The translations under genes and the position numbers were made by a program. Source: Ruminobacter sp. (GTDB lineage Bacteria; Pseudomonadota; Gammaproteobacteria; Enterobacterales; Succinivibrionaceae). Taken from it: DNA of 53,901 nt. The notes beneath the pieces were generated by a model. The model saw only the letters and a program-made list of their open reading frames with translations. It had not been told where the DNA came from and did not search any database. Where the stretch lies: assembly GCA_017940385.1 (NCBI GenBank), contig JAGAYS010000066.1, positions 1 through 53,901 on the forward strand, read 5' to 3'. Shown piece after piece: positions 22,064 to 47,155 of the stretch; positions within the stretch are counted from its first letter, which is position 1; the number at the start of each line of letters is the position of its first letter.

Positions 22064-23170
22064 CTAAAGCCCTATATCCCCGGCCATCTGCTCCAGTCTG
22101 CGTTCCCAGCAGTGGTGTTTTTTCACGAATTCACTTCCGGCAAACGCCCTGTCCATATTTTCTTTTGACGGAGCTTCAACCATTTTCGGCAGGATGTCCG
22201 CAAGTTCTTCGGGATTACCCACCGACGTACAGAAATCCTTAAAATGAAGGTCAACAGCTCTTGATCTGTTGGTCAGCAGAATTCCCCCGCAGGCAAGTAT
22301 TTCTATAAGCCTTCTGGAATACATGGTTTCGGAATCAGTAACCGAATTCACGTTAAGACAGACATTGTAATCCTTATATACTCGGGCCGTCTCCTGATTG
22401 GTGAGACTTGGATAAACCTTTATGAAATCACTTTTGGGGAATCTGAATTCAAAATAACCGGACATTCTCGAACTGTTACGGTCATAGGCATCCAGAATTA
22501 CCGACTTTCTGTTGCAGACGTCAAAAACCGCATCGAGAAACAGTCTTCTGGAATTGAGTATCTTACGGTAATAGGAGCCCACAAAACACATTCTTTTTTT
22601 GGTGAAGTTAAATCCCGTAAAATTATGGACCCGCGGCTGATATGCAATCTGCATGACGGAAACATGCTTTGAGCATTTTCCGTCTGGAGATATTGCCGCA
22701 ACGCGCTCCCTGTATTTCGGAACACAGTTAGCATCGGTTGTATAAATAAAATCACATTTCTCCGCCACGTCAATGAACGGTTCAAAATATGCTCCGTCAT
22801 CCTTGTTCCAGAAAACCGTCGGAATGTGAAGATCATTTGCCAGCCTTATCAGTTCTGAAAATTCATTCAAATCATTGCTTCCGAACACGGCGGAGTGTTT
22901 AACCAACCTGTAGCTCCAGGTCCAGCGGTAACCGTGAAATGCCGATTCCACAAAAACCAGGTCCGGCTTCCAGTTAACCAGCACATCCTTAAAATTATGA
23001 GGAGTAAGACTTCTGACACGGCATTCAAATGACAGATTCACGGATGTAAGATAATCGGTAAGGAGAGCCACTTTGAGCGAACCGAACTTACCGTCACCCT
23101 TGGCATCTTCCATTATGCCGGGATAATCGTACATGAACGTACGGGCCATTCTGATGATGTTACCCAGCAT
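22064..23170 (-). CDS. CgeB-like glycosyltransferase
   Basis: About 368 residues when started at the ATG overlapping the upstream stop (TAATG at 23168-23172). An upstream ATG at 23203 would lie inside the neighbour, and I prefer the overlap. The fold is GT-B of the CgeB / DUF3880-Glyco_trans_1_2 kind: VALLTDYLT start, IPTVFWNKDD, DFIYTTD, a mid-protein MCFVGSYYRKILNSR and the C-terminal SRRLIEILACGGILLTNRS. The same fold occurs inside both 1097-residue glycosyltransferases. It probably transfers one sugar of the repeat unit, but donor and acceptor are unknown. It is translationally coupled to the GT4 gene. Confidence 0.8.
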   Translation of the reverse strand: MLGNIIRMARTFMYDYPGIMEDAKGDGKFGSLKVALLTDYLTSVNLSFECRVRSLTPHNFKDVLVNWKPDLVFVESAFHGYRWTWSYRLVKHSAVFGSNDLNEFSELIRLANDLHIPTVFWNKDDGAYFEPFIDVAEKCDFIYTTDANCVPKYRERVAAISPDGKCSKHVSVMQIAYQPRVHNFTGFNFTKKRMCFVGSYYRKILNSRRLFLDAVFDVCNRKSVILDAYDRNSSRMSGYFEFRFPKSDFIKVYPSLTNQETARVYKDYNVCLNVNSVTDSETMYSRRLIEILACGGILLTNRSRAVDLHFKDFCTSVGNPEELADILPKMVEAPSKENMDRAFAGSEFVKKHHCWERRLEQMAGDIGL

Positions 23171-31171: not shown

Positions 31172-32326
31172 TTAGTCAACGTGGTCAAGTATTACCGACT
31201 TGAGGAGCTGCAGCATGCCGAGCACAAGCAGAGCTATGCATAAGGTAGCTACAAAGCAGTAAAATCTTTCAGGCTTCAGTGCATATTCAGGCTTGGACGG
31301 ACTCTGTAAAACAGATACGTGCTTAATGAGTCTGGCGGCATTCATCTTGCCCTTTACAAGACCGGTAAGGGCCGATGAATAAATATCCTTCTTGAAGTCA
31401 ACATCCATCTTAAGAGCCTGTTCCTTATCAGCCAGATCGTTAAGAGAGGTTGTTTTATCTGAAGTAATGAAGGATCTGACGTTGGCAATCTGCTCGTCAA
31501 TGGCCTTTATGTTACTTCTTAATGACAGCTTTATCTGATTATCGGAACCGATTGACTGAGGCAGTGACTGCATCTTAATGATAAGTTCACTCTTCTGTTT
31601 TTCCAGATCGGCTATGATGCGCTGATAATTTTCTACTTCTATGGCAGGAGATGCCATATTCTTCTGATTCTGGAATTTAAGAAGTCGGTCATTGGCGGCA
31701 CGGAGATCGTCTCTTGCGGTAGCAACCTGCTCTTCAAGGAACACAACCTGCTCATTGGCAACGGAATGGGTCAGTTCATTCATGAAGGCTTCGCCTTCCT
31801 TTACCAGGAATGATGAAATCTTTTCCGCGGTCTCAGGGTCGAAGGCCTGAGCCTCGATTCTGATAACACCGGTATAATCATCGTATGTTGCAAAAACACG
31901 CTTCTTAAAATAGGCGTAGAACCATTCCACTGAAACATCCCTGTCCCAAAGTCTGGAAACTATGTCATGCTCGGTGGAACTGTAGTGACTTCTGAGATCA
32001 AACTCCTTGTCAAGCTTATTCAGCATGTCGAGTGAGGTCAGATATTCTACCAGCAGCAGCTGGTCGCTCTTGTTTCCTGTGGTATTGGAAAACAGGTTCA
32101 GAAGATCCATTGACTGGGTTGATCCGCCGGTATCGGTATTCTGAACAAGAACCACCGCTTCTGAAACATAACGATCTGAAGCAAAACACCAGTAAATGAG
32201 GCTCAGAAAAGCCGCCACATAAATCAATTTAAAAATATACTTAAACGCGCGGTTTACGGCTCTGGTTGTTTTACCCAGATCCTTAAACGCCGCGGAATTA
32301 ACATCATTAACCTGTGTTTCACTCAT
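31172..32326 (-). CDS. kpsE: capsule export inner-membrane/periplasmic protein (KpsE/CtrB/BexC family)
   Basis: A 384-residue polysaccharide co-polymerase-type adaptor that bridges the ABC transporter and the outer-membrane channel. It has one membrane helix at ~residues 30-48, a large periplasmic part with long coiled-coil stretches (~190-300), and a second helix at ~355-378, the classical two-helix KpsE topology. The segment SDRYVSEAVVLVQN after the first helix is typical of the family. Its ATG overlaps the kpsT stop (ATGA), so translation is coupled. It is the last gene before the terminator. Confidence 0.9.
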   Translation of the reverse strand: MSETQVNDVNSAAFKDLGKTTRAVNRAFKYIFKLIYVAAFLSLIYWCFASDRYVSEAVVLVQNTDTGGSTQSMDLLNLFSNTTGNKSDQLLLVEYLTSLDMLNKLDKEFDLRSHYSSTEHDIVSRLWDRDVSVEWFYAYFKKRVFATYDDYTGVIRIEAQAFDPETAEKISSFLVKEGEAFMNELTHSVANEQVVFLEEQVATARDDLRAANDRLLKFQNQKNMASPAIEVENYQRIIADLEKQKSELIIKMQSLPQSIGSDNQIKLSLRSNIKAIDEQIANVRSFITSDKTTSLNDLADKEQALKMDVDFKKDIYSSALTGLVKGKMNAARLIKHVSVLQSPSKPEYALKPERFYCFVATLCIALLVLGMLQLLKSVILDHVD

Positions 32327-32985
32327 ACTTTTATGGTTTCCTTATAAGCAGCCAGTGCATCATCCAACTTGTCATACCATGTTGCCTGACCTTTGTACAA
32401 AAAAATTCCGGATTCGCAAAAACTCTTTAACATTTCATCATTATGGGCAACCATAATAATACTTGATTTGCCTGCAAGATCCTTAAACGCTTTTTTAGCC
32501 TTTTTCTTGAAAGCCGCATCACCTGCGGAAGTCACCTCATCCGACACGTAAACATCAAAATCGAAGGCCAGGGAAAGTGCGAACTGCAGTCTTGACTTCA
32601 TACCTGACGAATAGGTGTTTACCGGCTTGTCAAAAGCCTGACCGATATCGGCAAATTCCTGAATTCTGGCGATGCGTTCGTCCATCTCATCCTCAAAACC
32701 GTGAGCTCTGCAGATGAATTTTGCGTTCTGACGCCCTGTCATGGTGGCCTCTACGCCACCGTTTCCCATCGGCCACGACATTCTGCAGTGACGTTCCACT
32801 ATACCGTGGGTGGCGTAGTCCGCACCGCATATTATTCTGAGAAGTGTTGACTTGCCGGCTCCGTTACCGCCGACAATCCCAACGCTTCTGTTTTTGGGAA
32901 TTACCAGGTTAATACCTTTTAAAACCCAGTCACCCACGCCTTTTCTGGTGGTGTAACGTTTGTATACGTCTTTAACAATAATCAT
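32323..32985 (-). CDS. kpsT: capsule export ABC transporter ATP-binding protein
   Basis: 220 residues when started at the ATG overlapping the kpsM stop (TAATG), which is the usual KpsT length; an upstream ATG at 33072 would add 29 residues encoded within kpsM. Walker A is GGNGAGKST (39-47), the ABC signature is YSSGM (125-129) as in KpsT/CtrD/BexA, Walker B is DVYVSDE (144-150), and the switch His is at 181. With the KpsM-like permease it powers transport of finished capsule chains across the inner membrane. It has no C-terminal sugar-binding extension of the Wzt type, so the substrate is more likely recognised by a common lipid terminus than by a modified chain end. Confidence 0.95.
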   Translation of the reverse strand: MIIVKDVYKRYTTRKGVGDWVLKGINLVIPKNRSVGIVGGNGAGKSTLLRIICGADYATHGIVERHCRMSWPMGNGGVEATMTGRQNAKFICRAHGFEDEMDERIARIQEFADIGQAFDKPVNTYSSGMKSRLQFALSLAFDFDVYVSDEVTSAGDAAFKKKAKKAFKDLAGKSSIIMVAHNDEMLKSFCESGIFLYKGQATWYDKLDDALAAYKETIKV

Positions 32986-33761
32986 TACTGTGTCACCAAT
33001 CTTGTTTCCAACGCCCTGTAAAGAGCCATGCCGATAACCAGCATAACCAAATCTACGCCGTAAAGGTACCACAGGGATACATCGACGGTGTGATAGTTAG
33101 GCCAGAACCCCAGGCGCATGGATTCAAGGCCATGGACTATCGGGTTAATGGTCAGCAGACTCTGATACGGCTCAGGAATTCTGGCAATCGGAATAATAAC
33201 ACCGGAAATAATCATCAGAGGCATCATCAGAATCTGCAGAATGTGTCCTGAATCTCTCACAATTCGCATACATACCGATGAAATCAGACCATATCCCAGT
33301 CCCAATATCCATAACCCCATAAAGCCAGCCAGCACCCTTAAAATATCAACGGGAATTACCTGATAGCCGATAAAGGCAAAGATAATAACCAACAGGACAG
33401 TCACCCAAAACATGGAAAAAAGTTCAACGGTGGCACAGGTTAACGCCGTATCAAAAGGTCTTACCTGTCTGAAGGCAAAAAAAGCCTTGTTACAGTCAAG
33501 AGCATGAATGCCCTGAACCCCGGTTCTTCTAAACAGAAAGAACCCCATGAACCCCACCATCAGCCAGGATGCAACATCAACACCGCTGATCTGTCTGGCT
33601 CTTATCACCGTGAAAATAAATACCATGAACAATATGTGAATGCACGGTTCAATAAGCATCCAGGCCCAGGCACCGCGACTCCCGAAAAAACGGCTCAGGG
33701 CGTCTTTTAAAAAAAGAGCCTTCCATACCATCAGGGTATTTTTTACAGGATTACCACTCAT
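32985..33761 (-). CDS. kpsM: capsule export ABC-2 type permease
   Basis: A 258-residue membrane protein with six hydrophobic helices of the ABC-2 family. LKDALSRFFGSRGAWAWMLI at the N-terminus and the late INPIVHGLESMRLGFWP are typical of KpsM/BexB/CtrC. It forms the inner-membrane pore of the capsule exporter with the ATPase encoded by the next, overlapping gene. It starts 16 bases after the stop of the outer-membrane lipoprotein gene, in the same operon. Confidence 0.95.
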   Translation of the reverse strand: MSGNPVKNTLMVWKALFLKDALSRFFGSRGAWAWMLIEPCIHILFMVFIFTVIRARQISGVDVASWLMVGFMGFFLFRRTGVQGIHALDCNKAFFAFRQVRPFDTALTCATVELFSMFWVTVLLVIIFAFIGYQVIPVDILRVLAGFMGLWILGLGYGLISSVCMRIVRDSGHILQILMMPLMIISGVIIPIARIPEPYQSLLTINPIVHGLESMRLGFWPNYHTVDVSLWYLYGVDLVMLVIGMALYRALETRLVTQ

Positions 33762-33777: not shown

Positions 33778-35043
33778 TTATTCCGTTATCTTGTTAATGT
33801 TGTTGCCCCATGAAAGAGCAGGATTAACTATCAGACCGACAATGCGCAGGAACTTGGACAGTTCATAGCTTGAAGCGGTGGCAATGTAGATAACGTCACC
33901 GTTTTTCACACTGAAGTTCTGTGAGGAGAAAAATGAGCCTGGCTGATTTAAATCAATCTGGTAAACCATCGGTATTGATTCAAGTCTGCTGTACTTGTCA
34001 ACCTGCTCCATCGGATATACCCATGACTTTCCTGCGGTTTTGGCATTGTTGCCTTCAGCCGAAGCACCGGCTGAATTAAACGCGTCGGAAAGTTTTTTAT
34101 AAGTGGCCTTATCCTCAAAACGGAACACGAACACACCTGATGGATCGGCCATGTTGTCATTCAGACCGCCGGCACGTGAAAGTGCCTGAAGCAGGCTTAT
34201 GCCGGTAGCTTCAAAATTAATTTCCTTGGCTGAACCAAGGTTTGCCCCCATGATGGAATAGGACCACGGCTGATTCATGGCCACAAGCACGTCACCTGAA
34301 TTGAGATAAACGTTCTGTTTCGGATCCTTGATTATGCTTTCCAGCGGCATGGTTACGGTCTTACCGTCTCTGGTGAGCCCAACGGTAATTTTGCTGAAAG
34401 TGCTGGCAATGCCTGCGGTTGAAGCGATGGCATCAAGCACTCTTTCACCCTTAGGTGAAAGCAGAATGCTGCTTCCGCCCTGTCCGTCACCGATAACGGT
34501 AACCTTGTCAGCAGGTCTCTCGGAAACCTTTACCAGCACCTGAGGATTATTGGCTTTGTTTTCAAGTGCTTTAAGAATATCCTTTTCCACCTGACGCACG
34601 GTCTTGCCGACAACGGAAATCATGCCTACGAACGGCACGGAAATTTTACCGTCGTCTTCGATAATCTGAACAGGAAGCTTCTGAGAGCTCACCGCCAGAT
34701 TGTCACTGTCAACGCTGTTGGTCCCGAAAAGGAGAGCGGGAGCACTTTCCCAAATGTAAAGTTCAAGCGAATCACCGTAATTAACGGTATAGGTATCAGG
34801 CTTTCTGTCTCCGAACACGTCATAAAATGAAGACTTTGAAACGTCTTCATTGAGAAGATCCGTTACTGCCTCATCAACCATTACCAGAGAAATCGGAGTC
34901 TGCTGCTGATTCTGTTCCCTGGAGGTTATGTCCCCATAGCTTGGTCCCGCATGAGGGAGTGTACATCCGGAAAGAGTTACCTGCGATGCCACAACTGAAA
35001 GCAGTAATGCTGTTTTGATGCAAACGGCTATTTTTGAAATCAT
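33778..35043 (-). CDS. outer-membrane polysaccharide export lipoprotein (CtrA/BexD/KpsD-like)
   Basis: A 421-residue OPX protein. The N-terminus is a lipoprotein signal with lipobox LSGC (Cys27). A polysaccharide-export domain follows (VNYGDSLELYIWES, KISVPFVGMISVVGKTVRQV), then SLBB-like soluble-ligand domains (VTVIGDGQGGSSILL and VLVAMNQPWSYSIMG) and a C-terminal amphipathic stretch. Its length suits CtrA/BexD/VexA (~390 residues) better than E. coli KpsD (~560), so I leave the symbol blank. It forms the outer-membrane exit for the capsule. Its ATG immediately follows the TAA of the oxoamine synthase gene, tying lipid synthesis to export by translational coupling. Confidence 0.92.
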   Translation of the reverse strand: MISKIAVCIKTALLLSVVASQVTLSGCTLPHAGPSYGDITSREQNQQQTPISLVMVDEAVTDLLNEDVSKSSFYDVFGDRKPDTYTVNYGDSLELYIWESAPALLFGTNSVDSDNLAVSSQKLPVQIIEDDGKISVPFVGMISVVGKTVRQVEKDILKALENKANNPQVLVKVSERPADKVTVIGDGQGGSSILLSPKGERVLDAIASTAGIASTFSKITVGLTRDGKTVTMPLESIIKDPKQNVYLNSGDVLVAMNQPWSYSIMGANLGSAKEINFEATGISLLQALSRAGGLNDNMADPSGVFVFRFEDKATYKKLSDAFNSAGASAEGNNAKTAGKSWVYPMEQVDKYSRLESIPMVYQIDLNQPGSFFSSQNFSVKNGDVIYIATASSYELSKFLRIVGLIVNPALSWGNNINKITE

Positions 35044-36375
35044 TTAAATCCCTTCATTCTTACATAAGGAAGACAATATTTCACATGTCTTCGTGATTTG
35101 TTCTGCTGTATGTTCCGAGGTTATGAAGAACCTCAGTCTTGCCTGACGTTCCTCCACGGCAGGATGAATTATCGGCTGTACGTTTATTCCTTCCTTAAAT
35201 AAAGCGGCAGACAGCCATACCGCCTTTCTGGAACTTCCGGTGATAATCGGTACTACGGAATATCCCAGTGATTTTCCGGTGTTCAGATTCAGTCTTTTTG
35301 CGGTTTCAAGGAACAGCTTTCCGTTATCCTGAAGTCTCCTTACCCTTGACGGATCCTTTTTCATCAAATCCAGCGCCGTTTCGGCGGCAACCGCCATGGG
35401 AGCTGAGATTCCCACGCTGAAAACAAACCCCGGAGCATTATACTTTAAAATGTCAACTATGTCCTGCGTGGCGGCGATGTACCCGCCGCAGCCGGAGAGG
35501 GTTTTGCTGAGTGTTCCCATCCAGAGATCGACATCGTGAGGATCAACGTCAAAATGCTCGTAAACCCCCTTACCGGTTTTGCCGAGAACCCCAAGTGAAT
35601 GAGCCTCATCAATCATGAGGAAACAGCCGAATCTCTTTTTAAGCTCTATAAGCTTAGGCAGATCCGGAATATCCCCGTCCATGCTGAAAAGCCCCTCGGT
35701 TACTATCAGTACCCTTTCGTGATTACGGCGGTTCTTTTTAAGGAGATTCTCAAGAGAATCCATGTCGTTATGAACGTATGGGAAATGCGTTGCCCCGGAG
35801 AGCTTTATGCCCTCTATGATGCTGTTGTGCACCAGTGAATCGTTGATGATTAAATCATCGGCACCGAAAAGAGTGCTTATGACGCTTACGTTGGTGGCGT
35901 GACCGCTCACAAAGACAATGGCGTCATCGGCATCATAAACATCGGCAAGTTTTCTTTCAAGGCTCCGCTGGAAAGGTCTTTCCCCGGCAACCAGCCGGCT
36001 GGCGCCGACAGAGGTGCCGTGAACCTTCACGGCATTAATCACAGCTTCGTTAAGCTCGGCACTGCCGTTAAAGCCCAGATAGTTATAACTGGAGTAGTTG
36101 ACGTAATCCTTTCCGTTGATTCTCGTAACGGTTCCGTTAACTCTTTCATGTTCCCTGAAAAACGGATCTTCGATGTGGAAGGTTGAAGCAAGGGTTCTCA
36201 TGGTGCTTATCTTCTGATAGAGAGGATGCTCCCTGAAGGTGGTAAATTTCTTATTAACCTTCGGCTGTGCGTCGTCTTCCATAAGCTCCCTTGCGAGCTT
36301 CTCATCTTCTGATTTTCCGGATTTTTCCTTCATTATGGAATTAAGCATTCCGGCAAATTTAGGTGGATTAAACAT
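35044..36375 (-). CDS. PLP-dependent alpha-oxoamine synthase (BioF / serine palmitoyltransferase-like; RkpG/WcbT-type)
   Basis: 443 residues. The family joins an amino acid to an acyl thioester with loss of CO2, giving a 2-amino ketone. Visible motifs are NYSSYNYLGF (~93-102), GTSVGASRL (120-128), HNS near 183, IDEAHSLGVLG (Asp256 and His259 hold the cofactor) and TLSKTLSGCGGY with the PLP lysine at 291. An N-terminal extension of ~65 residues is longer than in BioF. It sits 8 bases after the polyketide synthase and abuts the capsule lipoprotein gene, so it most likely releases the polyketide chain from the carrier protein by condensing it with an amino acid. BioF proper is unlikely because no other biotin genes are here. 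The amino acid is unknown. Confidence 0.88.
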   Translation of the reverse strand: MFNPPKFAGMLNSIMKEKSGKSEDEKLARELMEDDAQPKVNKKFTTFREHPLYQKISTMRTLASTFHIEDPFFREHERVNGTVTRINGKDYVNYSSYNYLGFNGSAELNEAVINAVKVHGTSVGASRLVAGERPFQRSLERKLADVYDADDAIVFVSGHATNVSVISTLFGADDLIINDSLVHNSIIEGIKLSGATHFPYVHNDMDSLENLLKKNRRNHERVLIVTEGLFSMDGDIPDLPKLIELKKRFGCFLMIDEAHSLGVLGKTGKGVYEHFDVDPHDVDLWMGTLSKTLSGCGGYIAATQDIVDILKYNAPGFVFSVGISAPMAVAAETALDLMKKDPSRVRRLQDNGKLFLETAKRLNLNTGKSLGYSVVPIITGSSRKAVWLSAALFKEGINVQPIIHPAVEERQARLRFFITSEHTAEQITKTCEILSSLCKNEGI

Positions 36376-36383
36376 ACTGCTTA

Positions 36384-39300
36384 TTATTTTCCCACATTCA
36401 ACTGTCGTCCGATGGCGTCTCTTTCACCCTCATCGACATGAGCAGAGATAACCTGACGTACGGTTCCCTGTTCGTCATCGGAAGATTCGTTTCCGCTAAT
36501 CTTCATAAAGATCTTTTCGGCAAGTTTAAGTACCGTAGGATTGTCCTGGAAGGCCATCACGGAAAGCTTAATCTTTGTTTTCTTCTCGATGCTTACGATA
36601 AGCTCCATAGCCATGAGAGAATCAAGACCGATACTCTGCAGGTTCTGATCCTTTGCTATCTGATCGGAACTTAAACCCATGGTATCCGCAATTTCGGAAA
36701 CAAGCATGTCGGAAATCACGGCTATGGCATCCTCACGGCTTCTGCCTTCAATTACGGAAAGCAGATCATCGGAACCGAAATCCTTAAGTCTGAGCTTATC
36801 CTTCTGGACCAAATCATAGATTCTTGACGATACCCTGCCTGAGGTTTCGGCAACGCCCGCCCAGTTAAGGTTGGCAAAAATGTTCACGCCGCCGCGTCTT
36901 AATGCCTTTGGCAGCAGGGCCAAGGCCTCGTCACATGTCAGAGCCTCGGCACCGAGCACTGATTCAAGAGACTTCTTAATCTGTACTCTTGAACTTAAAT
37001 AACCGGTATCACTGATTGGACCCCATTCAATACAGCAGGAAGGCAGTCCCTGCGACAGTCTCATGGCCGTCAGACCTTCAAGTCCTGAGTTTGCGGACAC
37101 GTAATTTGCCTGACCGATGTTACCGATGGCAACGGATATTGACGAATACACCACAAAATTACGCAGTGCTTCGGAGTTAAACACCTCGTGAAGGTTACAT
37201 GCCCCCACGAACTTCGGATTCATAACCCCGGCATAAAGCTCACGGTTCATGGCCTGAAGCATGGTATCAGCAAATACCGCGGCGGCATGAATGATGCCGT
37301 TTACGGTAATGCCGGCGACGCCAAGACGCTCCCTTAAGGCTCTGACCTCCTCAGCTTTGGAAACGTCACATTTTTCCACGATAACGGTCAGACCGTTGGC
37401 CGCAATAAGATCTTCAAGCTCAGCCAGTACGCTTTCATCCCTGATACCGCTTCTGGAGACCAGTACCAGCTTCTTAATCCCCTGACCAATAAGATAACGG
37501 GCTGTTGCAAAACCGAAACCGCCGGTACCGCCCGTAATCATCCAGACATCATCAGCACTGAATACTTCGCAGGATCTGGAATTTTCAGATACGCCACGTT
37601 CAGCTTCTGTTCCAGCAGTTGCGGAATGTTCCGTTCTTTCAACGGTAATCTTACCAATCTGTCCGCCCTGCTGCATAAACTTGAACGCCTTAACGACGTC
37701 ACGATCACTGAACTTCGTAAACGGCAGCGGGGTGAATTCCCCTTCGGCGAAGAGACCGATTACCTCATGGAACAGTTCCCTTGCGCGCTTTGGATAAACC
37801 TTAAAGAGCTGATCCACGTCAATGGCAAAGTAGCTGATGTTTTCCTTAAGACTGCGTAATCCCACGGTGGTATTTTCCACGAAGTCACGTTTGCCGAGTT
37901 CCATGAATCTGCCGAACGGCTGAAGAACGGACATGCTCACGCGCATGGCCTCACCTGACAGGCAGTTAAGAACGGCATTAACGCCAACACCGCCTGTATC
38001 CCTCATTACCTCATCATGGAAATCGAGATTTCTGGAATTGTAAATGTGTTCAACACCAAGCATCTTCAGGAAATCACGCTTTTCAGGAGAACCTGCAGTC
38101 GCATAGACCTTAAGTCCCAGATGACGTGCGATCTGAATGGCCGCAATGCCCACGCCGCCTGCGGCACCGTGAATAAGAATGCTTTCGCCTTCTTCCATTC
38201 TTGAAAGGTGGTGAATGGCATACCATGCGGTAAAGAATACTATAGGAGCAGTGGCGGCGGCATCAAATGACCACTCGTCAGGAATCCTGGCAATTGCATA
38301 TTCAGGAACGGTCAGCTTATCGGTAAAACAGGCTGAACCGAATCCGAGCACCCTGTCACCCTTAACGTATTCGGTGACGTCAGAACCGACTTCCGAAACC
38401 ACACCGGCAAATTCAAGACCGAGAGCGGGACCTGAGAAGCCGTTTTCCAGAGCATCATCAGGAACCAGGCCCATGGTGAGCATGATGTCCCTGAAGTTAA
38501 GCCCCGTTACCTTAACGTCAACAATAACCTCATTGGCCTTCGGTGCGGAAACGGTCTTTTTCTTCCAGCAGAGATTTCTTAATCTACCGGGACTTGTGAA
38601 ATCAAGACAGTAGTTTTCGGAAATCAGAGAATTACTGCCGTCGCTCTTACCGACATTATTGGAAGCATCCGCAGGATCATTTTCACTTTCAGAGCTTCTT
38701 ACTACGGTGCGGAAACGTTCAGCCCCGGAAAGAATGACTTCATCGGAACCGTCAGGAAGCAGTAAATCCTTCAGAAGAGATGCTTCAGCAGCACCGGTGT
38801 CTGTTTCCGCCTTAAACGACAGATCAATGCTTCTTACGTTAATCTCCGAAGCTTCACTTCTGATTACGCGTGAAAGACCGATGAGTGCCGACTGTTCGGG
38901 AACGGTCTCATGAGTAAGCACAGCGTTACCGACTGAAGAACCGTTAACGGTAACAACTGAGAGATTTATTTCACCGGCTCCGGCATTCTTCTGCGCATAG
39001 CCGTTAAGCTTATTGACAACGGATGTGAGGACACTGAGGGCATCACTGATATCGGTTGAATCATCAGATGCGGGGATAATTCCGGTCTTTTCTGACAGGG
39101 AATCAAGTAACTGGTGTGAAGCCAGTCCGCATGATGAAACAAACACGAAGCTGTCATAATCTGCGATGTTAAGACTGTCTAAAGAGTCTTCATCAGCAGC
39201 AATAACATCCGCCTTAACCCCGAGTCCTACAAGTTCATTACGAATGAAACCCGCCTGAACGGAATTCCCTTCAGGAGAAACGACGGCATAGGCGTGTTTA

Positions 39301-42300
39301 ACACCTGCGGCAACCTCACTTAATGAAACTTCTTCGGTGTTTCTTACGAACATGAGATAGGCGCCCATCCGGTATTCGGAGGCGGCAGGTTCACGATATA
39401 CGGAAACGTCATTAAATGACTTTTCAAAAACAGTCTTCCAGTATTCAGGACTTCTGAGAGGGCTTATGGCATTGCCGTCACCGCGTTCAGACCACCAGTC
39501 TGAACAGAAACCGCTGCACATATTGGCAGACCAGTCTGAGTGTCTTTCAAGAACGGCAATTACACCGCCTGAAGCTAACATGTTTTTAAGACCTTCAACG
39601 GCTTCAATCACTGATGACGCCCTGTAAAGAGCTTCCTGAACCACGATTAAATCGTATTTCTGAGGGATGTACGGATCCGCTGCGTCTCTTTCAACAGTAA
39701 ACGTCTCAGGATCAAACTTTGCCTTTCTGATGTTTTCTGAAGGATTGATTTCAGCCATGTCCTTTTCGTTAAGGGCAAGAACCTCAACACAGGAACCTTC
39801 AGCAAAACAGTCAGTAAAAAGCTCTCCGAGCTTAAGTCTGTTGCTGCCGATTTCAAGCACCCTGAACTTAGTGCCTTCGTCTGCACCGATGCGCTGACTT
39901 ACGTCTGCTATGAATGAAGACATGGCATCCTTCATTCCGGTATAGAGAAGAGAATAACCGTTTCTTTCTTCTCCCCTGAGATCTTCTGCGGATACCCCGT
40001 CGGAGGCCTGTCCGTTCACAAGAAGATCCTTAAGTCTGTTGCCCACACGGTACAGAGGAAGAAGATCAGGCAGGGCTTCAGGTGCAAGATGATAGGCATA
40101 TCTTATGATTTCGTCGCCTGTGCCGATGTCATCCTGACTTACAAAATCCGTCGGAACTCCGTCAGCGATCTTAGCGAGACTATGCTTTACAAGCAGATCG
40201 GTCAGATATCCGTAAAGCGGACTTGTACCTGCCTTAGCCAAATCACCGGCATCGGAAGCCACGGCCTTTACCGCCTCAACGGAATAAGCCAGTACCGCCT
40301 GTTCCATCAGCGGCATTATCTTTTCGTACCAGTTCTTTCTGGCCTCTGTGTTTAAGAATCCGGCATCGCCGGCACATGCTTCAAGGAAGCTTACGATTTC
40401 AGAAGTGGATCGACCATCTCCCTTACGCGCATTCAGCGCATGAGGAGCGGCTTCAGCCTCATAATGCCATGAAGCGACACCTTCCTCTGCGGAACGGTTT
40501 TCGGTCTTAGGCATCATGTTGAATCTGCAGTTGTCCATTATGCCGACACAATCGTCAGCATCATTAAACAAACGGAATGATGCGAGAATGCTTCTTGCGC
40601 CCATTCTTTCAATTCTCGCCACGATATATGAAACTTCGGCATTCTTCATAACGGAAATGCGTCCGAATTTTACCGGAAGATAAGCCGAATCAGCTGAACT
40701 CAGCTGTTTCATGGCAAACAGGGAATGGAAGCCCGCATCAAGAATTCCCGGATGAATCACGTACTTTTCGGAATGAGCCTTAAGTGTCTTTCCGTTAAGA
40801 TGAATCTTCAGAACGTTATCAAGAATTTCCACCTTTTCAGTAATGGCAAACTGTTCACCGTAATGAAGTCCCAGACTTTCGGTAATGGCATAGATTTCAT
40901 CTTTCGTAACCACTGTCTGAGAAACGTCTGACGCCCGCTCATTCAACTTTTCATCATAAAGGTTTACGGCATTTCTCAGTGCGGAGTCATCCGTGGTCAG
41001 AAGACGTCCTTTGACGTTTCTGGTCCATTCGTCGAATGAGAGATAATCTCTCGAATATATGTCAAACGACATTGTTTCCGGAACAATACGGAGTCTCATG
41101 GACTTGTAATGTTCTCCGTCAAACACCAGTGAACTCAGAATGTCGAGATGTTCGATATTGATGCATTCGCCTGAATTAACGCATGACGCACCTTCAAGCA
41201 CAGTCTCGATAAAATCGGCAGCAGCATAAACGTATTCACCGTCTACCATGTGATCGCGGAGCAATGCGTATTTTGACGGTTCCAGAACATTCTGCCAGGT
41301 TCTGTCGGCAGAAAGAATGTTCCAGCCGAGAAGAGGGAAAATTCTGAACTCGTCAGGATGCTTTTCGGATGATTCCTTATACTCAAATACCTTTTCAGAC
41401 CATTTGTAGTAAGGGAGATCCACAAATCTGCCCTTCTCAGGGAAGAATACGGCCTTGTCGGACTCTGCGACAGACAGGTGATAATCCATGACAACCTGTC
41501 TCATCCTGCGGACACCGTCATTATTGAGCAGAAGCGTTGAACCAACCCTGGCATCGGCACCTGACTTCTTTGAGATATCACGCAGGTAACGCTGCAGAAT
41601 GGCATTGGAACCAATCTCCACGATATAATCGAAGCCGTCTTCGACCATGGCCTTAACGGCCTGCCAGAACTGAACCTTATCCCTGATGTTATGCCACCAG
41701 TAGTTGTTCTTTAAGAAGAATCCCTTCTCAATCCGTCTGCCCAAAACCGCTGAATAGAAAGCGGTACTCTGAGTGTCCGAACTTACGGTCCCCACGTCGG
41801 CGAGATCTTTCATTACGTCATTTTCAATAACGTTCATGAAAGAGCTGTGGAACGGATAATCAACATTCAGAATCTTAAAGAACACACCCTTTGATGAATA
41901 ATATTCCTTGAGTCGGGTAATTGATTCAGTTCGGCCTGAAACTGTAATGTTGTCGGATGAATTTATGGCGGCAACATCCACGTCGGTTATTCCGAGTTCT
42001 GCCTTAACGGCATTGAAATCATCCTCGGATACGGATACGGCGGACATTTTTCCGTGACCGCGGGTTCTGTCCTGCAGCATGCTGCGAATGCAGATAACCT
42101 TTACGGCCTCATCAATGGTAAGAAGCCCGGCAACATAAGCCGCGGCTATTTCCCCCATGCTGTGACCGACCACTGCCTCAGGCTTTAATCCGCCCTTTTC
42201 AAGCACCGCACAAAGTGCTGCCTGAATGGCAAAAATAAGAGTCTGGGCAATCTTTGTATCCTGAATAAGATCAGCTTCGTTTACCGTGCCTTCTTCAGCC

Positions 42301-44084
42301 GTTTTACCTGAAACGATATCCTTTAACGAAACGTTAAGGTACTTCTCTATCCTTTCTGAAAGATCATCAAACACGGAAGCGAACAGCGGGCATTCACGGT
42401 AAATGCTGCGCCCCATTCCCACATACTGGGAACCGTTTCCGTTAAAAACGAATGCCGTCTTTCTGCAGGGCTTTTTGGTTACGGCACCGAATACGCTGAC
42501 GTCGGTTCCGGTCTTAATCCAGTTATCAAGGGATGAGAGTACATCTTCCTCAGTGTCACCGGTCACGGCGAGTCTGTGCTCATAGGTATCCCTGGAGTTT
42601 ACCGCGGCATATGCAACGTCATAGTAATCATATTTTCCGCTTCTTAACAAATCTGCATACGATTCGCCGATTTCCTTAAGGGATTCCTTTGTTCTTGCGG
42701 AAATAAAAAGCGGAGGAACGGAACCGGAAACCTGACTTCCGGTTACTGACGAACAGTTTTCAGCACCGCCTCGGGAAGCATCGGATACCGCGTCATTGTC
42801 AAAAGACTGCAGTATCACGTGAGCATTGGCACCGCCAAAACCGAAGGAGTTGATGGCACCGGTATGAATGCGTTTATCGGAAAGTTTTACGCCGTCCTGA
42901 GAGCAGAGGATGTTCAGTCCGTCAAAATCAATCTTCGGACTCGGTCTGAAATCAAAAGGAATCGGCGGAACCGTACCGTGCTTTAACACGGTTACGGCCT
43001 TTACAAAACCGGCAAGTCCTGACATTGGTTCCATGTGACCGAGATTGGCCTTCACGGAGGAAACAGGAAGTCTTCCGTTACGATCCTTTGCATACACTGA
43101 CGCTATTGAACGGACTTCAATAGGGTCTCCCACTGGCGTACCGGTTCCGTGAGCTTCGATGTAATCAATGTCATCAACGGAAATACCGCTTTTTTCAAGC
43201 ACCTGCCTCATCAGCTCTGACTGTGCGGTTTCAGAAGGAATGGTAAGACCGCTCTTGCGTGAACCGTCGGTATTAACGCCTGAGGCCTTGATTACCGCAT
43301 GAATTCTGTTGTGATCCCTTAAGGCATCATCAAGCGGTTTCAGAAGCAGTGCGGCAACACCTTCGGAACGGACGTAGCCGTTTGCCCGTTCATCAAACGG
43401 TCTGCAGGTTCCGGTTGGCGAAAGCATGGATGCCTTACTGAACCCGACGAAGGAATAAGGCTTAAGGAGCAGGTGCGCACCGGCTACGATGGCACACGGA
43501 ACTTCCCCGCTTCTTATGGCCTGACAGGCGTGATGCAGGGTAACCAGAGTGGAAGAACAGGCCGTATCCATGGTCACGGAAGGACCGTGAAGATCAAAAA
43601 CGTAGGAAATTCTGTTTGAGTCAATACTCAGTGTATTGCCGGTCATGGTATAAGGTGAAACGGCAGGCAGATCCTCATCGGCACGCAGGAAGTAATCCAG
43701 TGACGAAATCCCAGTATAAACACCACAGTCGGAACCTTTGAAATCCTCAATCTTTATGTTGGCATTTTCAAGGCACTCGTGAGTAACCTTAAGAAGAAGT
43801 CGCTGCTGCGGATCCATCCATTCGGCTTCCTTCGGCGAAATACCGAAAAATGCGGGTTCAAATTCCTTTACGGAATCCAAAACACCCGCATTAAAGGTAA
43901 CGCTTCTTCCCGGAACGTTTTTATTATCATCCTGATACAGATCCGTTGGCCATCTAGAGGCCGGGATTTTGGTAATTGCACAGGTTCCGCTGCTTATCAG
44001 CGACCAGAACTCTTCTTCGTTCCTTATTCCTCCCGGAAACCTGAATGCCATGCCCACAACGGCTATATCTTTATTTTTACTCAC
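36384..44084 (-). CDS. highly reducing type I polyketide synthase (KS-AT-DH-degenerate MT-ER-KR-ACP; RkpA/WcbR-type)
   Basis: 2566 residues from a GTG start with AAGG seven bases upstream. The ketosynthase (1-430) has Cys176 in DTACSST, His312 in EAHGTGT and His350. The acyltransferase (~540-850) has Ser642 in GHSMGE and His746 in YPFHS. The dehydratase (~915-1190) has His945 and Asp1116, but the usual proline of HxxxGxxxxP is absent. Residues ~1240-1570 look like a methyltransferase whose SAM motif is degraded (VLEIGSNRLKLG). The enoylreductase is ~1830-2150 (GAAGGVGIAAIQ), the ketoreductase ~2178-2345 (TGGTGGFG, Tyr2328) and the carrier protein has Ser2489 in GLDSL. There is no thioesterase. 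All reductive steps are present, so a saturated, fatty-acid-like chain made by iterative use is expected. The gene is followed by the oxoamine synthase. Confidence 0.93.
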   Translation of the reverse strand: MSKNKDIAVVGMAFRFPGGIRNEEEFWSLISSGTCAITKIPASRWPTDLYQDDNKNVPGRSVTFNAGVLDSVKEFEPAFFGISPKEAEWMDPQQRLLLKVTHECLENANIKIEDFKGSDCGVYTGISSLDYFLRADEDLPAVSPYTMTGNTLSIDSNRISYVFDLHGPSVTMDTACSSTLVTLHHACQAIRSGEVPCAIVAGAHLLLKPYSFVGFSKASMLSPTGTCRPFDERANGYVRSEGVAALLLKPLDDALRDHNRIHAVIKASGVNTDGSRKSGLTIPSETAQSELMRQVLEKSGISVDDIDYIEAHGTGTPVGDPIEVRSIASVYAKDRNGRLPVSSVKANLGHMEPMSGLAGFVKAVTVLKHGTVPPIPFDFRPSPKIDFDGLNILCSQDGVKLSDKRIHTGAINSFGFGGANAHVILQSFDNDAVSDASRGGAENCSSVTGSQVSGSVPPLFISARTKESLKEIGESYADLLRSGKYDYYDVAYAAVNSRDTYEHRLAVTGDTEEDVLSSLDNWIKTGTDVSVFGAVTKKPCRKTAFVFNGNGSQYVGMGRSIYRECPLFASVFDDLSERIEKYLNVSLKDIVSGKTAEEGTVNEADLIQDTKIAQTLIFAIQAALCAVLEKGGLKPEAVVGHSMGEIAAAYVAGLLTIDEAVKVICIRSMLQDRTRGHGKMSAVSVSEDDFNAVKAELGITDVDVAAINSSDNITVSGRTESITRLKEYYSSKGVFFKILNVDYPFHSSFMNVIENDVMKDLADVGTVSSDTQSTAFYSAVLGRRIEKGFFLKNNYWWHNIRDKVQFWQAVKAMVEDGFDYIVEIGSNAILQRYLRDISKKSGADARVGSTLLLNNDGVRRMRQVVMDYHLSVAESDKAVFFPEKGRFVDLPYYKWSEKVFEYKESSEKHPDEFRIFPLLGWNILSADRTWQNVLEPSKYALLRDHMVDGEYVYAAADFIETVLEGASCVNSGECINIEHLDILSSLVFDGEHYKSMRLRIVPETMSFDIYSRDYLSFDEWTRNVKGRLLTTDDSALRNAVNLYDEKLNERASDVSQTVVTKDEIYAITESLGLHYGEQFAITEKVEILDNVLKIHLNGKTLKAHSEKYVIHPGILDAGFHSLFAMKQLSSADSAYLPVKFGRISVMKNAEVSYIVARIERMGARSILASFRLFNDADDCVGIMDNCRFNMMPKTENRSAEEGVASWHYEAEAAPHALNARKGDGRSTSEIVSFLEACAGDAGFLNTEARKNWYEKIMPLMEQAVLAYSVEAVKAVASDAGDLAKAGTSPLYGYLTDLLVKHSLAKIADGVPTDFVSQDDIGTGDEIIRYAYHLAPEALPDLLPLYRVGNRLKDLLVNGQASDGVSAEDLRGEERNGYSLLYTGMKDAMSSFIADVSQRIGADEGTKFRVLEIGSNRLKLGELFTDCFAEGSCVEVLALNEKDMAEINPSENIRKAKFDPETFTVERDAADPYIPQKYDLIVVQEALYRASSVIEAVEGLKNMLASGGVIAVLERHSDWSANMCSGFCSDWWSERGDGNAISPLRSPEYWKTVFEKSFNDVSVYREPAASEYRMGAYLMFVRNTEEVSLSEVAAGVKHAYAVVSPEGNSVQAGFIRNELVGLGVKADVIAADEDSLDSLNIADYDSFVFVSSCGLASHQLLDSLSEKTGIIPASDDSTDISDALSVLTSVVNKLNGYAQKNAGAGEINLSVVTVNGSSVGNAVLTHETVPEQSALIGLSRVIRSEASEINVRSIDLSFKAETDTGAAEASLLKDLLLPDGSDEVILSGAERFRTVVRSSESENDPADASNNVGKSDGSNSLISENYCLDFTSPGRLRNLCWKKKTVSAPKANEVIVDVKVTGLNFRDIMLTMGLVPDDALENGFSGPALGLEFAGVVSEVGSDVTEYVKGDRVLGFGSACFTDKLTVPEYAIARIPDEWSFDAAATAPIVFFTAWYAIHHLSRMEEGESILIHGAAGGVGIAAIQIARHLGLKVYATAGSPEKRDFLKMLGVEHIYNSRNLDFHDEVMRDTGGVGVNAVLNCLSGEAMRVSMSVLQPFGRFMELGKRDFVENTTVGLRSLKENISYFAIDVDQLFKVYPKRARELFHEVIGLFAEGEFTPLPFTKFSDRDVVKAFKFMQQGGQIGKITVERTEHSATAGTEAERGVSENSRSCEVFSADDVWMITGGTGGFGFATARYLIGQGIKKLVLVSRSGIRDESVLAELEDLIAANGLTVIVEKCDVSKAEEVRALRERLGVAGITVNGIIHAAAVFADTMLQAMNRELYAGVMNPKFVGACNLHEVFNSEALRNFVVYSSISVAIGNIGQANYVSANSGLEGLTAMRLSQGLPSCCIEWGPISDTGYLSSRVQIKKSLESVLGAEALTCDEALALLPKALRRGGVNIFANLNWAGVAETSGRVSSRIYDLVQKDKLRLKDFGSDDLLSVIEGRSREDAIAVISDMLVSEIADTMGLSSDQIAKDQNLQSIGLDSLMAMELIVSIEKKTKIKLSVMAFQDNPTVLKLAEKIFMKISGNESSDDEQGTVRQVISAHVDEGERDAIGRQLNVGK

Positions 44085-44185: not shown

Positions 44186-45424
44186 CTACTTCCGCCACAG
44201 ACCTCTGGTGTCAATCAGTATCTGCTTTTCATCAAAGTCAGGGCTGATGCTCCTGAACTCACGATGGTCTACCAGAAGAAGAATGATATCAGCCTTCAGA
44301 GCCTCTTCAGCGGATACCAGTCTGAGACCGGTGCCGTCAAAAATTTCCGGGAGTTCGGTTATGTTTGGTTCAACTGCCATCACACAGCCCGGATATTCCT
44401 TCGCCAGATCACGGGCAATGAACACTGACGGACTCTCTCTCAGGTCGTCTATGTCAGGTTTGAATGCAAGTCCCAGACAGGCAATGTTACAGTGTCTGTT
44501 AAGCTTTGCTATGGCATTTCTTACCTGCTGCTTCACCCATTCAGGCTTTCCGTCATTTACAAGTCTTGCGGTATGAATAATCCTTGCCAGATCCGGAGTC
44601 CTGCTGACGATAAACCACGGATCCACCGCTATGCAGTGTCCGCCGACTCCCGGTCCCGGGTTAAGAATGTTTACGCGTGGATGATGGTTGGCAAGGGATA
44701 TAAGCTCCCAGACGTCAATGTTCAGTCTGTCGCAGATAAGAGAGAGTTCATTGGCAAAAGCAATGTTTACGTCCCTGAATGAATTTTCGGTAAGCTTGGA
44801 CATTTCTGCGGTTCTGGCATTGGTTCTGAGAAGCTCCCCCTTAACAAAAACCGCATATACGTCAGCAGCTTTATCAGCTGAAACCCGGTTTATGCCTCCG
44901 ATAATGCGGTCATTATTAACCAGCTCAGACATAATCCTGCCGGGAAGAACCCTTTCTGGACAATATGCAATGAATACGTCACATTCGTCAGTGTTTTCAG
45001 ACGCCATTACCAGATCCGGACGCATTTCTCTGAGGATTTTGGCTACCCTCTCGGTTGTTCCCACCGGAGAGGTTGACTCAAGAATAACCGTATTTCCCTT
45101 TCTCAGAAACGGAGCTATCTCGGCTGTGGCTGACTCAACATAGCTGAGGTCAGGTTCATGAGATTCACCTTTGAAAGGAGTCGGTACGCAGATTATGAAT
45201 GCATCAGCTTCACACGCTTCGGTTGAAGCGCTCAGCATGTTTTCCTTTACGGCCTGTCTGACAACTTCACCGAGTCCCGGTTCAACAATATGAATCATTC
45301 CCTTGTTAATTGTTTCAACGGCATGGACGTTTACGTCAACCCCGAGAACACTGACTCCGTGAGATGCAAACATGGCGGCGGTAGGCAGTCCTATATACCC
45401 TAATCCGCAGATACAAAGTTTCAT
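44186..45424 (-). CDS. wecC: UDP-N-acetyl-D-mannosaminuronate dehydrogenase
   Basis: 412 residues. It oxidises UDP-ManNAc twice with NAD+ to UDP-ManNAcA in the cytoplasm. The Rossmann start CICGLGYIGLP, PTPF near 81-84, the STSPVGTTE motif (118-125), the Lys210/Asn214 pair and GVGGHCIAVDPWF with catalytic Cys264 match the UDP-sugar 6-dehydrogenase family. The CIAVDPWF variant and the neighbouring epimerase point to the WecC branch rather than UDP-glucose dehydrogenase. It lies 110 bases downstream of wecB in the same direction, and together they give a uronic acid for the capsule. It may instead be the paralogous capsule gene (cap5O/mnaB type), which does the same reaction. Confidence 0.93.
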   Translation of the reverse strand: MKLCICGLGYIGLPTAAMFASHGVSVLGVDVNVHAVETINKGMIHIVEPGLGEVVRQAVKENMLSASTEACEADAFIICVPTPFKGESHEPDLSYVESATAEIAPFLRKGNTVILESTSPVGTTERVAKILREMRPDLVMASENTDECDVFIAYCPERVLPGRIMSELVNNDRIIGGINRVSADKAADVYAVFVKGELLRTNARTAEMSKLTENSFRDVNIAFANELSLICDRLNIDVWELISLANHHPRVNILNPGPGVGGHCIAVDPWFIVSRTPDLARIIHTARLVNDGKPEWVKQQVRNAIAKLNRHCNIACLGLAFKPDIDDLRESPSVFIARDLAKEYPGCVMAVEPNITELPEIFDGTGLRLVSAEEALKADIILLLVDHREFRSISPDFDEKQILIDTRGLWRK

Positions 45425-45534: not shown

Positions 45535-46677
45535 CTATACGGCCATCAGACTGGTTTCATACCCTGACGCACGGAGAATGGCACTCACGATTTTTTCAGA
45601 AGAATGTCCGTGTCCGTACGGATTCTGGGCATTTTTCATTCTGTTGTATGCTTCGGCATTCTCAATCAGTTCGGAAACCCCGTCAACTATGGCACTGGTG
45701 CTAGACCCCACAAGTCTAGCACATCCGGCCTGAATTCCTTCAGGTCTTTCGGTAACCTCTCTCATTACGAGAACAGGCTTGGAAAGAGCCGGAGCCTCCT
45801 CCTGTATACCTCCGGAATCCGTCAGTACCAGGTATGATACGTTGAGCAGAGCCTGAAAATGAAGATATGAAAGCGGAGGAAGAAGCATTACCCTTGCGTG
45901 ATTACTGAGTATTTTCCTTACGGTATTCTGAACTGCAGGATTGAGATGAACCGGATAAACAAAAATACAGTCCATATACTTGTATGACAGATGTTTAATG
46001 GCATTACAGATGTCTACGAGGCCGGTGCCCTGATTTTCCCTCCTGTGGCCGGTTACGAGAATGATTTTCTTCCCCTGTTCAACGGCTTTCCTGACATCCT
46101 CATGCAGATATTCGTTTTTATCCTTAAGGTAATCCCTTACCCACATAAGAGCATCAATTACGGTATTTCCCGTAATATATACGTTATCGGGAGAAATCCC
46201 TTCCTTAATCAGATTGTTGTATGCCAGTCCGGTAGGTGCAAAATGAAGATCGGCAATTCTGGTAACGGTCTGACGGTTTACCTCTTCCGGGAACGGAGCA
46301 TACTTGTCGTAACTTCTTAATCCTGCTTCAACGTGCGCAATCCTGATATGACGGTAAAAAGCACACATTGCCCCCACCATAACAGTGGTGGTGTCACCCT
46401 GAACAATGACCCAGTCAGGTTTTTCCCTTTCAAAAACCTCATCAATGGCGGTAAACAGTTTTGCCGTCAGACTGGCAAGAGACTGACCGTGACACATGAC
46501 ATTAAGGGAAATGTCGGGAACAATGCCGAAATCCGAAAAAGCATCCTCTATCATCTGCTGATGCTGTCCCGAATTACATACTACCGTCGTAATATCTTTA
46601 TGTTTTTTTAATTCCATAACCACGGGAGCCAGTTTTACGGCTTCAGGTCTGGTTCCCGCAATCACTATAATCTTCAT
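45535..46677 (-). CDS. wecB: UDP-N-acetylglucosamine 2-epimerase (non-hydrolysing)
   Basis: About 380 residues from the ATG at 46677, which gives the normal family start MKIIVIAGTRPEAVKLAPVV. An ATG at 46800 would add 41 hydrophobic, unrelated residues, so I reject it. Other family motifs are VQGDTTT (~95), AHVEAGLRS, FPEEVNRQ and the C-terminal LTDSGGIQEEAPAL. It interconverts UDP-GlcNAc and UDP-ManNAc, the substrate of wecC downstream. It is the first gene of the long minus-strand unit that carries lipid synthesis and export, and is divergent from the heparinase-like gene. Confidence 0.94.
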   Translation of the reverse strand: MKIIVIAGTRPEAVKLAPVVMELKKHKDITTVVCNSGQHQQMIEDAFSDFGIVPDISLNVMCHGQSLASLTAKLFTAIDEVFEREKPDWVIVQGDTTTVMVGAMCAFYRHIRIAHVEAGLRSYDKYAPFPEEVNRQTVTRIADLHFAPTGLAYNNLIKEGISPDNVYITGNTVIDALMWVRDYLKDKNEYLHEDVRKAVEQGKKIILVTGHRRENQGTGLVDICNAIKHLSYKYMDCIFVYPVHLNPAVQNTVRKILSNHARVMLLPPLSYLHFQALLNVSYLVLTDSGGIQEEAPALSKPVLVMREVTERPEGIQAGCARLVGSSTSAIVDGVSELIENAEAYNRMKNAQNPYGHGHSSEKIVSAILRASGYETSLMAV

Positions 46678-47155
46678 ACAAAACTCAAAAAAGCTCAAAA
46701 ATAAAGCGTCTGCATACAACTGTCCGGCATTACACGGTTGTTTCAGCACCAAAAATAAACTTGTTATCAGCTTCACAATTTTAATACAAAGCTTCAACAT
46801 GTATCATTTTTTTTACAGATTTTAATTTTATTTTAAAACATTAATCACAAATATTAAAATTTTTATTTCAGCATTCAGTTCCACTCATAACGCCAAAATT
46901 ACCGACAACAGCTACATGCATGTATGCGGAAAACCTTAAAAAAACACATTCTCATGAGTCTTTTTAAAGGAATTCAAACCATGTCATGAAAATAAAGTAA
47001 GCCTTTTTCTTTCGTTAAAGTCTTTATCATCTAAACGGCCATTTCCTCAACCGACGCGGCAAACTGATGATTTTCTGAATTATTAAGTTATAATGTCTGC
47101 CTGTTTCGCCATGTGTAAAGTATCGGATAACCAGCATAGGACTACAAATCGATAA
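46678..47155. promoter_or_regulatory. divergent promoter region between wecB and the heparinase-like gene
   Basis: A 478-base AT-rich gap without a gene. On the plus strand a consensus -10, TATAAT, lies at 47089-47094, about 60 bases before the heparinase-like ATG; the best -35 (TGATGA, 47065-47070) is poor. The minus-strand promoter for the wecB unit must lie here too, but I see no strong match. I did not find an ops/JUMPStart-type element. Confidence 0.5.

Follow-up and report, generated by a model that had tools for sequence, protein, structure and literature searches.

The window, by which we mean the whole stretch of 53,901 nucleotides of Ruminobacter DNA analyzed here, contained a capsule gene block on the minus strand, in which wecB (UDP-GlcNAc 2-epimerase; 45535..46800), wecC (UDP-ManNAc dehydrogenase; 44186..45424), a type I reducing polyketide synthase gene (36384..44084), an alpha-oxoamine synthase (AONS) gene (35044..36375), kpsD, and kpsM were separated by gaps of 110, 101, 8, 0, and 16 nt. 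Both wec products exceeded their NCBIfam cut-offs (WecB, TIGR00236, 461 bits with a cut-off of 210; WecC, 625 bits with a cut-off of 459). The export genes encoded a KpsD-like outer-membrane export protein (33778..35043; PF02563 and PF22461), a KpsM-like ABC exporter membrane subunit (32985..33761; PF01061; 117 bits to the KpsM model, cut-off 300), a KpsT-like ATPase (32323..32985; PF00005), and a KpsE-like inner-membrane protein (31172..32326; PF02706; 232 bits to the BexC/CtrB/KpsE model, cut-off 437). The open frame of kpsT extends to 33072, overlapping kpsM by 88 nt; a comparison of start candidates favored 32985, with which the overlap is about 1 nt, and kpsT overlaps kpsE by 4 nt. A gene for a heparinase II/III-like protein, perhaps a capsule-editing lyase, adjoined wecB on the plus strand (47156-49057).

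The synthase, of 2566 aa, showed the domain order KS-AT-DH-ER-KR-ACP by Pfam and motifs, with a weak methyltransferase-like segment (aa 1388-1553; PF13489, 21.7 bits, Pfam cut-off 27) that lies between DH and ER and is probably degenerate, and its Pfam listing contained no thioesterase. By the patterns that we take to define these active sites, the KS Cys/His/His, AT GHSxGE, DH His and Asp, and ACP Ser motifs, the ER and KR nucleotide motifs, and the KR Ser/Tyr/Asn residues were all present and intact. The PLP-dependent AONS (PF00155) matched its nearest solved chains with 217 bits. AONS-type NCBIfam models matched it, none above its own cut-off; the BioF model TIGR00858 (8-amino-7-oxononanoate synthase) reached 345 of 426 bits and three serine palmitoyltransferase models 294 of 640, 266 of 500, and 203 of 670 bits. 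We propose that the synthase makes an acyl chain and that AONS releases it as a long-chain amino ketone. The gene order from the synthase and AONS to the capsule genes was the same in the relatives G002 and G003 (69-98% identical).

A second capsule block lies on the same strand about 6.6 kb past kpsE, beyond genes for an ATPase and a helicase. The functional unit extends to 17884-24531, past the region considered in the original prediction, which overlooked this module as well as the undetected KpsC/KpsS described below. Between the two blocks are genes for a predicted AAA-ATPase that contains a PD-(D/E)XK domain (28973-30781, plus strand) and for an SNF2 helicase (24774-28682); both genes were seen in G003, and the G002 stretch has another glycosyltransferase-like frame there instead. 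The module begins with a GT4-type glycosyltransferase, GT1 (23170..24531; PF00534; 175 bits to TIGR04063, below the cut-off; syntenic relatives), and a putative linker glycosyltransferase (22064..23203; PF13524), 45-55% identical to seven relatives. These are followed by a 793-aa fusion protein (19462..21843) assigned by Pfam and motifs, consisting of a membrane GT2 (about aa 1-535), with the motifs DDS, DAD, TED, and QxxRW, and a short-chain dehydrogenase/reductase (SDR; about aa 541-793), with TGxxGxIG, NAG, and YxxxK. The fusion, whose SDR is encoded about 15 kb away from the synthase, is proposed to combine a ketone reductase (SDR) with the first sugar transferase (GT2). GT2 passed the PF13506 cut-off (49.8 over 21.7 bits), but among solved relatives it matched cellulose synthase with 137 bits and ceramide glucosyltransferase (GT21) with 28 bits, so that a closest relationship to the latter could not be upheld. 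Being nearer to cellulose synthase, GT2 could be a polymerase.

The last gene of the module (17884..19461, minus strand) starts directly after the fusion gene and encodes an LtaS/GacH-like membrane protein with a sulfatase fold (PF00884). Its nearest solved structures were the phosphoglycerol transferases GacH (61 bits), LtaP, and LtaS, and it missed the cut-off of the NCBIfam LtaS equivalog (29.5 of 970 bits). The residues T289, D472, H473, and H409, which we take to be the conserved Thr and metal ligands, were invariant in 17 aligned sequences, and the protein is a putative phosphoglycerol transferase. Two genes probably involved in capsule polymer synthesis followed on the minus strand, for a GT2-containing protein (14567..17860; PF00535) and a polyol-phosphate (CDP-glycerol-type) transferase (12326..14452; PF04464), and a second teichoic-type gene was found at 2395-5154 (PF04464). 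The original prediction had described a complete synthase without thioesterase, an AONS gene 8 bases away whose stop abuts kpsD, the ensuing kpsM/T/E, and UDP-ManNAcA and teichoic-like genes, and it held in all of these particulars. The region 5001-12000, with a GC content of about 30% compared with 42-49% over most of 15-46 kb, is perhaps a recent import; it holds pyruvyl-transferase domains and a GalU-type gene, and includes a 709-aa protein (8677-10806) that joins ferredoxin-type 4Fe-4S motifs and an FrhB/FdhB C-terminal domain to a polysaccharide pyruvyl transferase.

Distribution of the synthase-AONS cassette and of the glycosyltransferase module

In a tblastn search with AONS against plasmids, of which the best 40 of 527 records were considered, 14 records showed 46-53% identity, followed by a drop to 43% and 39%. 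Named genomes were then represented by the best 80 of 583 AONS relatives, scanned with gene profiles built in this analysis; these genomes come without completeness figures, and the genome searched may be a different assembly from the named record. A synthase lay near AONS in 76 of these 80 loci, directly upstream on the same strand in 56. The other 24 comprised nine with an LpxC-like gene in between, seven with overlaps of long open frames, four with no synthase in the stretch examined, three with the synthase on the opposite strand, and one with it in pieces. The intervening gene, annotated in Burkholderiaceae as a UDP-3-O-acyl-GlcNAc deacetylase (L081 12920-13834 and L083 12904-13830), perhaps carries out an amide-editing step on the lipid. 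Four Desulfovibrio relatives suggest a differently built system, in which the synthase profile matched a shorter opposite-strand frame by AONS (L147, L153, L163) or nothing in the stretch examined (L158); the genomes of L147 and L158 had neither PF05159 nor the module.

Within the examined flanks of the same best 80 of 583, a kps-type gene was present in 36 loci, a number that rose to 54 when SDR and LtaS-like genes were counted; both of the latter occurred in 22 loci. None of the tested capsule genes was found in the flanks of 26 loci, several of which are short contigs. The synteny of synthase, AONS, and kps genes, a check proposed with the original prediction, therefore recurs in other named loci and is not unique, and its wide recurrence places the set with the rkp/wcb kind. 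Pairing of the AONS cassette with ManNAcA genes was also seen in Caballeronia p2, Leeia oryzae, and a Desulfomicrobium MAG.

Two relatives bear on the hand-off from ACP to AONS. A single annotated 2532-aa protein of Planktothrix agardhii has the order KS-AT-DH-ER-KR-ACP-AONS, and a single protein of Streptomyces anthocyanicus the order KS-AT-ACP-AONS; the joining of synthase and AONS in one chain supports transfer of the chain from ACP to AONS. No capsule genes were seen around these fused genes in the stretches examined. A precedent for the hand-off is the acyl-ACP-using serine palmitoyltransferase of Caulobacter, as described in parts of PMC9386255.

The order GT1-GT-GT2-SDR-LtaS-like was kept in Nitrosomonas europaea, Leeia oryzae, an Accumulibacter MAG, and Betaproteobacteria HGW-12. 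It was interrupted by a contig end in the Desulfomicrobium MAG, and on the Caballeronia plasmid p2 the module was in two pieces, with the glycosyltransferases apart from the SDR-LtaS pair. In Leeia and Accumulibacter, the module lay on the same contig as AONS, at a distance of about 20 kb, and in Caballeronia both were on one plasmid. Among the best 80 of 583 named genomes, the linker glycosyltransferase profile gave 660-695 bits in six (next best 374), and GT2 gave 603-870 bits in the same six (next best 240).

Undetected KpsC/KpsS and exchange of linker modules

KpsC and KpsS were searched with PF05159, a model that had control matches in E. coli and Bacillus subtilis. No match was found in the window genome (93.9% complete) or in the three other genomes of its genus (all four 92-97% complete), whereas all eight genomes that carry the cassette in the family's other genera had PF05159, with G021 set aside. 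In those other genera, the order was synthase-AONS-KpsS-GNAT-SDR-LtaS-like-KpsC-KpsM-KpsT, read fully in L071 and L075, to the stretch end in L078, and partially in the rest of L070-L078. In one of them, G015 (L076 13001-14956), the SDR of the cassette has 651 aa, with the Pfam SDR domain in about the first 250 residues and no Pfam match in the remainder. G021 carried one locus of each type on separate contigs, with GT2 and SDR as separate adjacent genes. Among 56 family genomes, the GT2-SDR fusion was found as one frame in three (G000, G002, and G003) and as two overlapping frames in G001, all four belonging to one genus. Of 25 family genomes searched for the linker glycosyltransferase, five had it, namely the four of the window genus and G021, and the remaining 20 gave no match.

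Outside the family, five module genomes of other genera were PF05159-negative, namely N. europaea, L. oryzae, the Accumulibacter MAG, HGW-12, and the Desulfomicrobium MAG. No PF05159 match was found on the Caballeronia plasmid, the only Caballeronia record searched, so that calling Caballeronia as an organism KpsC/S-negative is unsupported. Among the best 80 of 583 named genomes, 70 with AONS carried PF05159 and ten did not (7 of 50, 2 of 27, and G050 among the remaining three). Five of the six with strong linker glycosyltransferase and GT2 matches were PF05159-negative, and another five of the ten negatives had no module (G431, G433, G458, G471, and G480). A strict exclusion between KpsC/S and the glycosyltransferase module was rejected, because both occur in Bordetella pseudohinzii, where GT1, the linker glycosyltransferase, GT2, KpsC, and KpsS lie together in one locus, and in G021, in separate loci. 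The association of the module with missing PF05159 gave a raw Fisher value of 5.9e-5, which treats genomes as independent. A tree-aware paired test, using 92 of 104 rows and leaving out all plasmid rows (including L080 from Planktothrix and L084 from Streptomyces) and both G021 rows, yielded three pairs in agreement, none opposed, and three without difference (p 0.25, not significant).

A quick AONS tree with long branches, in which the Planktothrix and Streptomyces rows were labelled KpsC/S by default, grouped the window AONS with the cassette AONSs, apart from three outgroup rows, and contained six changes of module type, at least four of them forced by well-supported branches. Well-supported sister pairs of unlike type were Accumulibacter adjunctus and A. 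conexus, and Caballeronia p2 (plasmid only) and a Burkholderia, and these pairs suggest that linker modules were exchanged while the lipid pathway stayed in place.

Several window proteins were closer to far loci of the module type than to loci of the other type in their own family. For KpsM, identity was 44-50% with six distant module-type loci, compared with 24-26% for three other-type loci of the family; for KpsT, it was 57-63% (six loci) compared with 35-38% (two loci). The corresponding values were 51-55% (five loci; Caballeronia 40%) and 25-33% (seven loci) for SDR, and 34-40% (six loci) and 24-31% (seven loci) for the LtaS-like protein. The cluster thus looks as if it was acquired from outside the family. 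Some far KpsS-type loci were equally close (SDR 52-53% in L111, L131, and L132; KpsM 44-46% and KpsT 60-62% in L092 and L093), and neither the exporter type nor the SDR type corresponds strictly to the type of linker.

A proposed lipid terminus and its alternatives

We propose that the locus makes its own Kdo-free lipid foot for an ABC-exported capsule, an amino-alcohol lipid that is directly glycosylated, and we regard the case for this full account as evenly balanced. The synthase would build a reduced and presumably long acyl chain on its ACP, probably by iteration. With no thioesterase, AONS would take the chain from ACP and condense it with a small amino acid under loss of CO2, and the resulting long-chain amino ketone would be reduced by SDR to an amino alcohol, a sphingoid-like base. 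The membrane GT2, fused here to SDR, would attach the first sugar on the cytoplasmic side, and its two neighboring glycosyltransferases would extend a conserved linker in place of the KpsS/KpsC Kdo linker, as synteny and the undetected KpsC/KpsS suggest. A ManNAcA/polyol-phosphate polymer would be built on this linker and exported by KpsMTED, and the LtaS/GacH-like enzyme may add phosphoglycerol to the lipid or the linker, probably on the periplasmic side.

The fusions, the undetected PF05159, the conserved module, the co-occurrence of the linker glycosyltransferase with GT2, and the acyl-ACP precedent all count for this account. Against it stand B. pseudohinzii, the PF05159-negative genomes with no module, the p of 0.25, the cellulose synthase-like GT2, the ManNAcA genes, the distance of about 15 kb between SDR and synthase, and a cited title that speaks for a phospholipid anchor in S. 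meliloti 1021. The role assigned to the glycosyltransferases is the part most likely to be wrong. In more general terms, and tentatively, ABC-exported capsules may have a further conserved glycolipid terminus in addition to the Kdo-phosphatidylglycerol and Vi diacyl-HexNAc kinds, a polyketide-derived, sphingoid-like amino-alcohol lipid glycosylated with no Kdo by a GT2-SDR pair and two further glycosyltransferases and swapped with KpsS/KpsC more than once, a generalization that we hold to be possible and somewhat short of probable.

The glycosyltransferases may instead belong to the capsule type, because wecB/wecC accompany the module in four of the six named genomes (among the best 80 of 583) in the stretches examined (short frames only in Accumulibacter), and WecB was near AONS in two of the other 74 (L118 and L149). 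The synthase, AONS, SDR, and LtaS-like protein would then make the capsule lipid, GT1, the second glycosyltransferase, and GT2 would make a ManNAcA-type repeat, and another enzyme would join the first sugar, a division of labor also consistent with the three glycosyltransferases beside KpsC and KpsS in B. pseudohinzii and with the resemblance of GT2 to cellulose synthase. This explanation appears rather unlikely to us, as the examined stretches of N. europaea and HGW-12 gave no strong WecB/WecC match despite the module, and GT2 adjoins or is fused to SDR, a lipid-type gene, in several lineages.

An ordinary rkp/wcb system, in which the lipid acts as a carrier or as an aid to export, the anchor is a normal phospholipid, and the Kdo enzymes are too divergent for detection or hidden in assembly gaps, would fit the 70 of the best 80 of 583 named genomes that carry both AONS and PF05159, the 93.9% completeness of the window genome, and a phospholipid anchor in S. 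meliloti, as worded in a title cited in PMC5539429. We consider it improbable, given that PF05159 went undetected in all four genomes of the genus, each 92-97% complete, and present in the eight from other genera of the family (G021 aside), and that the model detects its E. coli and B. subtilis controls. It is very improbable that the product of the synthase and AONS is a secreted amino-polyketide with no relation to the capsule, their genes being no more than neighbors of the capsule genes, as the fused Planktothrix and Streptomyces genes with no capsule genes in the stretches examined and the 26 named loci with no tested gene in the flank (several on short contigs) might suggest, since 54 of the same best 80 of 583 had tested genes (36 by kps-type genes alone), AONS abuts kpsD in the window, and the same set is required for the Sinorhizobium capsule according to statements in reviews.

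If correct, the proposed lipid foot would add a further branch to the ways in which ABC-exported capsules are understood to be anchored. The lipid of rkp/wcb-type capsules is left undefined in the portions of the literature consulted, despite the long-standing proposal of a lipid carrier. The fusions, of synthase with AONS in one organism and of SDR with GT2 in another, sketch a sequence of reactions open to testing one enzyme at a time. Organisms with no detected KpsC/KpsS, such as N. europaea, offer a background not blurred by a Kdo linker.

Comparison with known capsule and sphingolipid systems

The closest known systems are Sinorhizobium rkp-1 and Burkholderia-type wcb, which, like the window, have a synthase, AONS, SDR, and LtaS-like gene among capsule genes; the window shares with them a full reducing synthase beside AONS and an SDR directly followed by an LtaS-like gene. 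The original prediction had noted that such clusters combine similar proteins, and the cassette is indeed of the same kind, with the AONS of S. meliloti Ak57 pSymB 46% identical to that of the window over 96% of its length. The S. meliloti locus L079 has the cassette order synthase-AONS-SDR-LtaS-like, in which a 520-aa LtaS-like frame (16322-17881), for which the incomplete PLSDB table lists no gene, follows SDR in what is presumably the place of rkpI. It differs in carrying KpsS/C-family and KpsF-type genes, where the window genome had no PF05159 match and the window has the GT1-GT-GT2 set instead, and the two SDRs are only 28% identical.

The interpretation first offered, a chain off-loaded onto an amino acid and reduced to a sphingoid-like lipid on which the capsule is built or anchored, is plausible and was partly anticipated in print. 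The hand-off suggested by the Planktothrix fusion, the SDR in the capsule block, and the capsule context of the relatives favor it indirectly. Its claim that a defined lipid product for this set would be new in a ManNAcA/teichoic-like capsule did not stand as worded, as the set is of the rkp-1/wcb kind, the ManNAcA pairing recurs, and the lipid-carrier idea is not new in itself, the rkp-1 products being said in a passage of a 2016 review to make and modify "a specific lipid carrier" (PMC4881576). Reviews state, in the passages concerned, that the synthase-AONS set is required for the capsule in Sinorhizobium. The title cited by PMC5539429 names a phospholipid anchor for the S. meliloti 1021 capsule, which, as far as a title goes, argues against an exclusively sphingoid anchor in that strain or leaves the matter undecided. 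Identity with the swf synthases of sponge symbionts was set aside, because PMC3908369, in the part that concerns them, itself separates them from WcbR/RkpA. In the open-licence literature, where absence is a weak sign, no article linked capsular polysaccharide, sphingolipid, lipid anchor, and ABC transporter, joined sphingolipid with KpsC, or treated rkpA, rkpG, and rkpH together, and capsule, oxoamine synthase, and polyketide synthase met in a fungal review only.

Group 2 capsules, with KpsMTED, KpsC/KpsS, and Kdo-phosphatidylglycerol, have in common with the window the KpsM/T/E/D-type export; KpsMT, KpsE, and KpsD were all found, with KpsM and KpsE below their NCBIfam equivalog cut-offs. They differ in their use of KpsC/KpsS, for which, as for rkp-1/wcb, the window genome had no PF05159 match. 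The Vi capsule of Salmonella Typhi is, as here, exported by an ABC transporter with no KpsC/KpsS and has a diacyl-HexNAc anchor according to the main text of a 2025 review (PMC12220298); it uses VexE, whereas the window has the synthase-AONS-SDR set. That review describes the Kdo-phosphatidylglycerol and Vi diacyl-HexNAc termini, and "polyketide" and "sphing" are absent from its main text (PMC12220298). The bacterial sphingolipid pathway, with a serine palmitoyltransferase and AcpR, resembles our proposal in the AONS fold and the use of acyl-ACP, as given in parts of PMC9386255. It differs in that the window AONS misses the serine palmitoyltransferase cut-offs and the chain would come from a type I synthase. 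In fungal fumonisin- and sphingofungin-type pathways, an AONS releases the chain of a reducing synthase and the product is secreted; the solved fungal SphA matched the window AONS weakly (84 bits). What is new in the locus is a conserved variant, apparently free of Kdo, whose GT2-SDR pair is fused in this genus.
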